Below are positions 47,862 to 51,388 of a DNA stretch of 64,000 nt, piece after piece (positions within the stretch are counted from its first letter, which is position 1; every line of letters starts with the position of its first letter). Source of the DNA: an uncultured Desulfobacteraceae bacterium (GTDB taxonomy: Bacteria; Desulfobacterota; Desulfobacteria; Desulfobacterales; Desulfatirhabdiaceae); the NCBI GenBank assembly GCA_903953895.1, contig CAJBLH010000070.1, positions 1 to 64,000 on the forward strand. The letters are read 5' to 3'. The notes below the pieces were generated by a model, which searched no databases, was not told the origin of the DNA, and worked only from the letters and a program-made list of their open reading frames with translations. The position numbers and the translations under genes are program-made.

Positions 47862-48446
47862 ATGATTCGAACCGGATTGAAAATGGTGATTGCAGTACTC
47901 CTGATTGTCGGTTTTTGTTCCATGGTCTGGGCCGAGACACCCGCACCCAAGGATGAAAGAAAACACACCACCTTGGGAAAATATGCTACATCCATCGAAG
48001 CCTACGAGATGTGGAAGGCCAATCCGACAAAAGTCAAAATCATCGACTGCCGGATTCCCGAAGAATATGCCTATGTGGGGCACGCTCCGATGGCCATAAA
48101 CATTCCTTCCATGGTCTGGACCGGGAAGTGGAATGCCGAGAAAAATGACTATGCGCTTGATCCCAATACGGAATTCGAGGCCCTGGTGAAGCAAAAAGCC
48201 GCTCTTGACGACACGATTCTGATCATGTGCCGGTCCGGGCATCGCAGTTCGGCTTCGGTCAACCGATTGGCTAAGGTCGGATTTACAAACGTATACAATA
48301 TCGTGGATGGCTTTGAAGGGGATATGGTCACGGATGAAGACAGTTACTTCAAAGGCAAACGGGGTAAAAACGGCTGGAAGAATTCTTCGGCTCCCTGGAC
48401 ATACCAGCTTGACCCTGCTTTGATCTATAGACATGCAGAAAAATAA
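47862..48446 (+). CDS. Exported rhodanese-like protein
   Basis: 194 residues, AAAGGAG upstream. A signal peptide (MVIAVLLIVGFCSMVWA, cut before ETPAP) precedes a rhodanese fold: KVKIIDCRIPEEYAYVGHAP, then the active-site loop MCRSGHRSS, then GFTNVYNIVDGFEGD. The catalytic Cys is present. Rhodaneses move sulfane sulfur; here it would act in the periplasm. A roughly 30-residue insertion lies before the active site (YALDPNTEFEAL). Confidence 0.88.
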   Translation: MIRTGLKMVIAVLLIVGFCSMVWAETPAPKDERKHTTLGKYATSIEAYEMWKANPTKVKIIDCRIPEEYAYVGHAPMAINIPSMVWTGKWNAEKNDYALDPNTEFEALVKQKAALDDTILIMCRSGHRSSASVNRLAKVGFTNVYNIVDGFEGDMVTDEDSYFKGKRGKNGWKNSSAPWTYQLDPALIYRHAEK

Positions 48447-48531: not shown

Positions 48532-49281
48532 TTATCTGAAACGCATATAAAATCCAACAGCCACCGCCCGTATCAGAATGCCAGCGGTGGCAAGCACGAT
48601 CACGCCGGCAACCAGACGGTGCAGCCTGTTCTCTTCGGATTTTTCCCGGTACCCCAGCAGTACAGCACAGACCACACCACAGATCAGTCCGCCGCCATGC
48701 CCCCAGTTGTTGATTCCGGGAACCACAAGGCCAAATATCACGATACCCAGAATCCAGCTTTTCATCTGCTGAAAAACCGCCTGCCCGTACATACCGCCGC
48801 GGCTTTTGCCGTAGTACAGGGCTGCACCCATCAGACCGCACAAGGCTGCGGAAGCACCGATGGTCAGTGGAATGCGGGCAATATAGGATAGCCAGAAGCC
48901 GGCCATTCCGCTCAGGGTATAAATGATGATCATCCGGGAGCCGCCGTACAGATTCAGGATGACCGGTGCAATCTGACGGAACGCCATCATGTTGAAAAAA
49001 ATGTGCAGCACGCTGCCGTGAAGATAATTGGCAGAGATCAGCGTCCACCACCTTCCGAACCGATGGATCGGAATCACGCCGGTGGCTCCCATCAGAATCA
49101 GACTGCCGTTATCCGGAGACAGAAATGTCAGCGGGTTCAGAGAAAGCCCTGTTTTCAGAGGGTGAATCAGCAGAGACAGCACAAACATGCCGACATTGGC
49201 ATAGAGTACGCCGGGGATGACCCACGATTCCAGTCTTGATTCTCGGATGATCGATTTCAACAGCAGGAACCACCCCCGCAT
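48532..49281 (-). CDS. Rhomboid-family intramembrane protease-like protein
   Basis: 249 residues from ATG 49281, overlapping the hgcB end by 25 bases. About six helices. The family motif HIFFNMMAF (HxxxN) lies near residue 100. The catalytic serine lies in TIGASAALCGLMGA, where the usual GxSG reads GASA, and the catalytic histidine in NNWGHGGGLICG. It thus has the Ser-His pair but an Ala where Gly is usual. Cleaves membrane proteins if active. Its place at the end of arsR-hgcAB is unusual. Confidence 0.83.
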   Translation of the reverse strand: MRGWFLLLKSIIRESRLESWVIPGVLYANVGMFVLSLLIHPLKTGLSLNPLTFLSPDNGSLILMGATGVIPIHRFGRWWTLISANYLHGSVLHIFFNMMAFRQIAPVILNLYGGSRMIIIYTLSGMAGFWLSYIARIPLTIGASAALCGLMGAALYYGKSRGGMYGQAVFQQMKSWILGIVIFGLVVPGINNWGHGGGLICGVVCAVLLGYREKSEENRLHRLVAGVIVLATAGILIRAVAVGFYMRFR

Positions 49282-49547
49282 GTGGCGGCTTCTTTTCCCT
49301 TGATCCATGTCTGAATGATATAGCTGGCGCAGCCCACACCCGGAGTGACGGTGATGGCATGAACCGGGCAGTTGGTAGCACAGGCGCCGCACTCCATGCA
49401 TCCATCGGGATCGATGATGGCGGCTTTTTTGTGGTCGATTTTCAGCACGCCGTGAGGACAGACCGTTTCACACATACCGCAGCCAACACAGGTAGTATCG
49501 TCCAAAGACAGGGTGGCGACTCCTGGCAGATATCGAAATGTCTTCAT
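49257..49547 (-). CDS. hgcB: Mercury-methylation ferredoxin HgcB
   Basis: 96 residues. Two CxxCxxCxxxCP motifs (CVGCGMCETVCPHG; CMECGACATNCPVHA) bind two [4Fe-4S] clusters. A further conserved Cys follows in GVGCASY, and the C-terminal vicinal pair GGGSCC is a hallmark of HgcB. HgcB supplies electrons to the HgcA corrinoid and is thought to bind Hg(II). It starts 13 bases after hgcA. Confidence 0.96.
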   Translation of the reverse strand: MKTFRYLPGVATLSLDDTTCVGCGMCETVCPHGVLKIDHKKAAIIDPDGCMECGACATNCPVHAITVTPGVGCASYIIQTWIKGKEAATCGGGSCC

Positions 49548-49560
49548 GAATACATCCTTT

Positions 49561-50751
49561 TCATACGAATGCGGCCAGTATCCACAGCACTGAGGCGGCC
49601 AGCATGGCGACAGCCTGCAGGGGAATGGCCAGACGCATTTCTTTTTCCACGCCGGACGGCGATGTAAACGGTGTACACCCGGTAAAATTCATGGCAAGGT
49701 ATGAGCTGACAGCCATGACCACCAGCATCAGCGCCGAAAATGCGGTTCCGGAAAGTCCTCTGGGCAGCAGGACGGCACAGATCAGGCCGGTAGTGGCGCC
49801 TTTCAGGGAAAAAGACAGGCCCGGTATCCAGGGCAGGAGAATCGGCATGACGACAGCACCAGAAAAAATGCCAAGCACAAAGGCGGCGGCGGCGTAAAGC
49901 CCTCGGCTCCAGGCCGCGTGAAACGAAAACAGCCCCGGGCCGAAGCCGGAAATCAAAAAGACGGCTGCCAGAACCCGGACCAGTGGTTTTGCGAGCAGAT
50001 ACAGCTCGACCGGGGTCAAAACCAGCCGTTCGGTCGTTGAAAACGTAACCCGGCGCATGGTTTCATCCGCAGTCATGCCGTTTTTCAGAAACCGGGTGAT
50101 ATCCTCAGCCCGGATCGGCCCCCATACCACTTCAAATCCACAGAGTTGTTTCACTTTCTGAGCAGACACTCCGGTTGCAGATAGCTGCGGCAGAACAAGC
50201 TGGCGGTGACGAACGAGCTGGGTCAGGTTGCAGCGGACAGCGCGATCGGCTACTTCCTGGCTGGAGAACGTTTTTTTGCCGGCAGCGCACCACACATTGA
50301 TTCCCCGGGTGTCGCAGACCATGATCCATGCATCGACCGATCCCAACTGCCGGCGAAGGGTGTCGAAACTGAGTTTGTAATTGGCTGTCACCAGAACCGG
50401 CGAATCCGGACCCGGAGAGCCGGCGCCGTAGATCCCCGGAGCGACCTGATAGGCATCACGGAAAATTCCCAGCCTGACTCGGAAGGCGCCCAGCCAATCC
50501 CGGCCGGTCAGCCGGGTGTCGATTATCGGAACCCGGCCCGTTGGTGTTTCCGTAAAATTTCGAACAAATTGGCAGATGGTGTATCCCGGCATTTCATGAG
50601 GGCCGGCAGGCTTTGTAATCGGAGAACCACAGCAGGGAATGTCTTTCGGTGCGGCAGCCGGCAGAGGAACAAACGGGCTCGATATTTTTTCACAGCCTGC
50701 GGGTGCGCCTTGTGTGCAGCAGTCCGGGCGGCAGGAGCAGGGATTTGTCAT
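49561..50751 (-). CDS. hgcA: Mercury-methylation corrinoid protein HgcA
   Basis: 396 residues; GGGAG precedes the start. The N-terminus is Cys-rich (MTNPCSCRPDCC). The corrinoid-binding domain carries the HgcA cap-helix signature NVWCAAGK at residues 152-159, whose Cys155 (codon 50287-50289) is the cobalt ligand in characterised HgcA. Five membrane helices fill the C-terminal third, from VLAAVFLISGFGPGLF to AVAMLAASVLWILAAF. HgcA transfers a methyl group from a corrinoid to Hg(II), giving methylmercury. It follows arsR by 77 bases and is followed by hgcB. Confidence 0.97.
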   Translation of the reverse strand: MTNPCSCRPDCCTQGAPAGCEKISSPFVPLPAAAPKDIPCCGSPITKPAGPHEMPGYTICQFVRNFTETPTGRVPIIDTRLTGRDWLGAFRVRLGIFRDAYQVAPGIYGAGSPGPDSPVLVTANYKLSFDTLRRQLGSVDAWIMVCDTRGINVWCAAGKKTFSSQEVADRAVRCNLTQLVRHRQLVLPQLSATGVSAQKVKQLCGFEVVWGPIRAEDITRFLKNGMTADETMRRVTFSTTERLVLTPVELYLLAKPLVRVLAAVFLISGFGPGLFSFHAAWSRGLYAAAAFVLGIFSGAVVMPILLPWIPGLSFSLKGATTGLICAVLLPRGLSGTAFSALMLVVMAVSSYLAMNFTGCTPFTSPSGVEKEMRLAIPLQAVAMLAASVLWILAAFV

Positions 50752-50828
50752 GTTCTTTTCTCCCGAATCATCTTGTTTTTGGGATTCAGCGGTGATGAAA
50801 GTATCGGCAATGAGGTGTTGTCAATCGA

Positions 50829-51152
50829 TTATACGGTCAATTCGTCGATACCCTGCCGGAATCGTTCCAGCACATCCTTGTTCAGACAGTAACAGGTTCG
50901 GGGGCCGTCCACATTGCCCTGTATCAATCCGGCATTTTTCAAACACTTCAGATGCTGGCTGACCGTCGACTGGGCCAGCGGCAGCATCTCCACAATATTG
51001 CCGCAGATACAGCCGTCCATCGATCGGAGGTGCTGGATAATCCGGACCCGCGCCGGATGTCCCAGTGCCTTGCAAATCCGAGCAAAATCAACTATATTCA
51101 AGTTGTTGGACCCGGAAAAGGCTTTTTCCGGATGCGGAGAAACCTGTATCAT
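50829..51152 (-). CDS. ArsR/SmtB-family regulator of the hgcAB unit
   Basis: 107 residues with a winged-helix core: ARICKALGHPARVRIIQHLR, CICGNIVEML, recognition helix LAQSTVSQHLKCLKNAGLI and the wing GPRTCYCLN. Cys pairs (GCICG and TCYC) could bind a metal or metalloid. An ArsR-like gene co-transcribed with hgcAB is known from studied mercury methylators. Upstream lies a strong palindrome, so it probably represses itself and hgcAB until its ligand releases it. Confidence 0.9.
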   Translation of the reverse strand: MIQVSPHPEKAFSGSNNLNIVDFARICKALGHPARVRIIQHLRSMDGCICGNIVEMLPLAQSTVSQHLKCLKNAGLIQGNVDGPRTCYCLNKDVLERFRQGIDELTV

Positions 51153-51159
51153 ATCGACT

Positions 51160-51196
51160 CCTTTTTATCGTATTTTTACGATATACGATAAAAAGG
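51160..51196. promoter_or_regulatory. ArsR operator palindrome upstream of arsR-hgcAB
   Basis: Perfect 14-base inverted repeat, CCTTTTTATCGTAT at 51160-51173 and ATACGATAAAAAGG at 51183-51196, with a nine-base spacer. A second nested pair, ATCGTA/TACGAT, overlaps it. It ends at the Shine-Dalgarno of arsR, so a bound dimer would block both promoter and translation start. Half-site ATCGTA or TACGAT is repeated four times. ArsR dimers typically bind such symmetric sites. Confidence 0.7.
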
Positions 51197-51388
51197 CTGG
51201 CGTCAATGGAGAAAACAGCGTGAAACGCCTGTCTTTGCATTGGTGGATCACAGTGACCAGGGTGGCTATTCTGTCGATCGGAATTGACACCCGAATTCAT
51301 TTGGCCTACTATAAAACAGATGCAGGGAACGGCCCTGCCATTTACGAATTGATACCATGCCATTAAAACAGGAGATAAGTGAATTCCG

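Follow-up and report, generated by a model that had tools for sequence, protein, structure and literature searches.

The gene pair hgcAB is a marker of methylmercury producers. Among the closest described systems is the arsR-hgcA-hgcB operon of Pseudodesulfovibrio mercurii ND132, in which, according to the papers that cite the original study, an ArsR-type gene precedes hgcA and hgcB in the same orientation and the operon is under ArsR control and responds to arsenic (Gionfriddo et al., 2023, cited in PMC10349881 and PMC13362967). Work on ND132 also identified SAM as the methyl donor. Within the ArsR family SahR and SamR regulate the SAM cycle, and a palindromic ATC-10 nt-GAT sequence is the site consensus common to SamR and gamma-proteobacterial SahR (PMC4239095). 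Concerning the proteins, selenocysteine motifs have been listed for HgcA ('CU') and HgcB ('GVGU') (PMC13188914), and the large subunit of the corrinoid protein CFeSP (CdhD/AcsC; PDB 2h9a) contains a cobalamin-binding domain that is related to HgcA.

Here an arsR-hgcA-hgcB locus is described that is encoded in the window, the whole stretch of 64,000 nucleotides analyzed, from an uncultured bacterium of the Desulfobacterota. The genes of this locus are ordinary for the host's group, and both their arrangement and ArsR control in ND132 are already published. The additions to this known system are evidence for the operator across the order, a family that seems to be regulated in trans, the cysteine/selenocysteine context of HgcA and the relic of a decayed operon.

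Organization of the Locus

Three genes on the minus strand make up the locus:

50829-51152, minus strand: arsR, 107 aa, ArsR/SmtB-type winged-helix repressor (NF033788 and PF01022, fold, conservation of cysteines)
49561-50751, minus strand: hgcA, 396 aa, mercury-methylation corrinoid protein (NF040863, tree, residues, hydrophobic segments)
49257-49547, minus strand: hgcB, 96 aa, ferredoxin partner with two [4Fe-4S] motifs (NF040864, positions of cysteines)

The first-pass annotation had called arsR-hgcA-hgcB from the letters of the DNA and had proposed profile models and an HgcA tree as checks. Curated models, invariant residues, gene order and the tree all bear this call out. Both methylation proteins exceed the curated NCBI equivalog cut-offs, HgcA with 416 bits against NF040863 (cut-off 275; alignment extending to model position 324 of 325) and HgcB with 124.6 bits against NF040864 (cut-off 99). 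The upstream gene is likewise of the ArsR type, as proposed: its product passes the metalloregulator model NF033788 with 71.4 bits (cut-off 55) and also matches PF01022, and its structure, predicted from an alignment with 34 homologues at a mean pLDDT of 81, shows the fold of the ArsR/SmtB family, whose regulators are also its best structural matches. In the same alignment C48, C50 and C89 are invariant and C87 is usual.

The genes are separated by 77 nt (arsR and hgcA) and 13 nt (hgcA and hgcB), and no terminator-like site was found on the coding strand of either gap. From a dsrA in the genome that scores above the cut-off of its profile model, the host can be regarded as a probable sulfate reducer of the Desulfobacterota; an SSU rRNA (16S) gene was not found in the assembly. 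Taken as a whole, the locus is very probably a complete mercury-methylation operon that is repressed by ArsR at one promoter and released by an effector, and from the published genetics of other strains production of methylmercury would be predicted for this organism.

Operator, Promoter and Proposed Regulation

Upstream of arsR an inverted repeat overlaps a promoter:

51160-51196, no strand: operator, perfect 14-nt inverted repeat with arms at 51160-51173 and 51183-51196
51178-51206, minus strand: sigma-70-type promoter, TTGACG-N17-TATCGT, with the -10 hexamer inside the operator

The first-pass annotation mentioned an operator in its title only; comparison across the order now backs it on the level of sequence. 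The repeat did not arise in any of 100 shuffled versions of the window, its core common to the order comprises positions 51167-51189, and related arsR genes are preceded by the same arrangement of promoter and operator. Since the operator covers the -10 hexamer, binding of the repressor would keep RNA polymerase away. The inner palindrome ATC-GTAAAAATAC-GAT at 51167-51182 fits the ATC-10 nt-GAT consensus of SamR and SahR, from whose sites the operator differs by an additional 5' half-site, ATCGT. It also differs in its target, as a search of the 5.47-Mb genome with up to three mismatches allowed gave a single site, at hgcAB, and no second one, for example at genes of the SAM cycle. A literature search that did not include the primary ND132 paper returned nothing relevant on an hgcAB operator, and earlier publication is possible.

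For this organism the following sequence of events can be envisioned. A dimer of ArsR without inducer would occupy the operator with the -10 hexamer in it and block RNA polymerase at the single promoter, keeping arsR and the presumably co-transcribed hgcAB genes switched off. An effector would then free ArsR; arsenic is the candidate by analogy with ND132, and SAH or thiol-binding metals could be further ones. Once synthesized, HgcA would accept a methyl group, with SAM as donor as in the ND132 work, on a cobalamin held by the cap-helix residue C155 and would hand it to Hg(II) bound to thiols of HgcB and perhaps to the N-terminal cysteine pair of HgcA itself, with HgcB as supplier of electrons. 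The hgcAB regulator of ND132 reportedly responds to SAH as well as to arsenic, and a repressor responsive to SAH would in effect detect a product of the HgcAB reaction.

What is the native task of such an operon? It is quite possible, if short of probable, that HgcAB serves another methyl or metalloid transfer, that methylation of mercury is incidental and that ArsR reports arsenic or the SAM/SAH balance. The regulator is nearer to arsenic- or SAH-responsive ArsR proteins than to MerR, its operator contains an inner palindrome with ATC-N10-GAT spacing, mer genes were not seen adjoining the operon, and an arsenic response is published for ND132, as relayed by the citing papers. Such a role is, however, compatible with a repressed mercury-methylation operon, as it concerns what the proteins are for and not what they are.

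Distribution of the Operator

For a survey of the order the pattern ATCGTnTATCGTn6ACGAT was derived from about ten related loci. In 389 genomes it has 42 exact sites, distributed over 41 genomes; the loci from which it was derived count among the 42, most of which were independent of the derivation. Next to hgcA lie 39 of these sites, and the remaining three adjoin an arsR of the hgcAB type on contigs that stop short of the expected position of hgcA. A phylum-wide sample contained six sites, two of them from the order itself, and the four from outside it are likewise accompanied by arsR and hgcA.

It is very improbable that the repeat represents an RNA element or has arisen as a palindrome by chance, instead of serving as a protein-binding operator, although 10 of 33 arsR-hgcA loci lack a close match to it. 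The same pattern read backwards has no site in the 389 genomes, as compared to 42 sites that are each found beside hgcA or an hgcAB-type arsR. Moreover, as the repeat contains the -10 hexamer, a large part of it is located ahead of any transcript; the window has no match to an Rfam family, and the site also precedes a distal arsR as well as hgcA genes without an arsR.

For a comparison of loci with and without arsR, 83 hgcA loci were sampled from the order. An adjacent arsR is not universal among hgcA carriers, being present at 33 of these loci; with up to one mismatch allowed, the operator was found at 23 of the 33 and at 4 of the 50 loci without adjacent arsR. Three of these four belong to a single family (f29), in which the operator stands directly before hgcA. 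Genomes of this family also encode a distal arsR of the same type (50-53% identical), the promoter of which carries a variant operator; the arrangement fits repression in trans. In canonical As(III)-sensing ArsR proteins the ligands are a CxC close to the recognition helix and a third cysteine. The motifs C48-x-C50 and C87-x-C89 are kept in hgcA-linked arsR genes and partly lost in the distal copies of this family (L166, L167 and L168), where they are in part replaced by CITG or CICG and by TCYQ or TCYR. The replacement suggests a changed or metal-independent signal for the distal regulators.

An ArsR-controlled operon of this kind could form a regulon with one target. We propose, tentatively, an ArsR/SahR-like repressor dedicated to hgcAB that acts through a single operator at the -10 hexamer in many families, in at least one of them in trans. 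Provided that such a repressor has no other target, its releasing ligand would point to the native substrate of HgcAB or to a by-product, possibly SAH formed in the SAM-dependent reaction. As it is almost exclusive to hgcAB, the operator provides a searchable DNA signature that predicts which genomes have these genes under ArsR control, and its conservation points to identification of the ligand that frees the repressor.

HgcA, HgcB and Probable Selenocysteine Variants

Two short elements of hgcA are of particular relevance for function:

50275-50298, minus strand: cap helix NVWCAAGK of HgcA, residues 152-159 with C155, from sequence
50629-50634, minus strand: C40-C41 of HgcA, cysteine form of the N-terminal Cys-Sec motif, by comparison with L006, L036-L040 and L114

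The residues highlighted by the first-pass annotation withstood closer inspection. The cysteine of the cap helix was correctly numbered as 155. The five C-terminal helices correspond to five hydrophobic segments in the hydropathy profile (approximately residues 250-396), and the cysteine-rich start is non-random, as CCGPPxGP...ERPGY is found again in relatives; compared to ND132, HgcA of the window (396 aa) bears this start as a cysteine-rich N-terminal extension. In HgcB two CxxCxxCxxxCP motifs account for the proposed two [4Fe-4S] sites, the extra cysteine is C73 within GVGC, and the C-terminal pair is C95-C96. Altogether HgcB has cysteines at positions 20, 23, 26, 30, 50, 53, 56, 60, 73, 90, 95 and 96, with the same numbering through C73 in HgcB of ND132, which likewise has a terminal cysteine pair.

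In a tree of 104 proteins the nearest partner of the window's protein is HgcA from a genome of the same genus, and all HgcA sequences split from the CFeSP of the order itself with a support of 100, which places the protein among HgcA and outside CdhD/CFeSP. That this protein would be a CdhD/CFeSP-type component of the acetyl-CoA pathway and not a mercury methylator is practically untenable and is ruled out by model scores and tree, for despite a match to the corrinoid domain PF03599 and a closer similarity to CFeSP (related region, residues 84-224 of HgcA) than to any other solved structure, it scores above the HgcA equivalog cut-off, forms part of a separate clade, has a membrane domain and the cap-helix cysteine, adjoins hgcB, and shares its genome with a distinct CFeSP encoded elsewhere.

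The N-terminal cysteine pair of HgcA varies in the order. At seven loci (L006, L036-L040 and L114) an in-frame TGA takes the place of the second cysteine, and conserved sequence continues beyond it; in a second HgcA clade C-TGA occupies a comparable N-terminal position. An in-frame TGA at this pair was also seen at L092-L096, L102 and L147-L151. HgcA with the in-frame TGA is probably a selenoprotein, judged from the reading frames, and common in the order. Selenocysteine in HgcA was considered as a new finding and dropped, as the motif is already listed (PMC13188914). The Cys-Cys of the window is, by sequence, the cysteine counterpart of the known Cys-Sec motif: the listed selenoproteins share their motifs with the window at matching places, whereas the window has the cysteine form at both variable sites, C40-C41 in HgcA and GVGC73 in HgcB. 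Exchange of cysteine for selenocysteine suggests a reactive thiol or selenol at the N terminus of HgcA, which perhaps acts as a mercury ligand.

Evolution and Neighboring Genes

HgcA scores above the cut-off in 162 of the 389 genomes of the order and in 2 of the 7 genomes compared from the window's genus. In a sister genome of this genus (G002) what remains in the interval between fabH and a rhomboid gene is a 3' portion of arsR and a 5' portion of hgcA (L178, G002:C232, 2242-2726). The operator has been lost, as have most of hgcA and almost the whole of hgcB; in another genome (G003) the same interval has no detectable remnants of the hgcAB operon. The simplest reading of this history is vertical inheritance with repeated loss. 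The decayed operon of the sister genome and the Cys/Sec exchange at the N terminus of HgcA constitute useful natural variants.

Downstream of hgcB two further genes follow:

48532-49281, minus strand: rhomboid-family protease gene, with an overlap of about 25 nt between its likely start and the end of hgcB
47862-48446, plus strand: gene for a rhodanese-domain protein, oriented convergently to the rhomboid and hgcAB genes

The rhomboid gene was considered as an operon partner of hgcB and rejected: 193 of the 389 genomes of the order have it, in most cases at a large distance from hgcA. In seven genomes from five families, that of the window included, it lies no more than about 6 kb away from hgcA. 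A shared ancestral position suffices to explain its proximity to hgcB, because G002 and G003 have fabH and the rhomboid gene together without hgcAB.

Two genomes of the survey carry two copies of hgcA each, G044 (L005 and L097) and G250 (L125 and L126), and in either genome only one hgcA of the pair is accompanied by a neighboring arsR in the same orientation.
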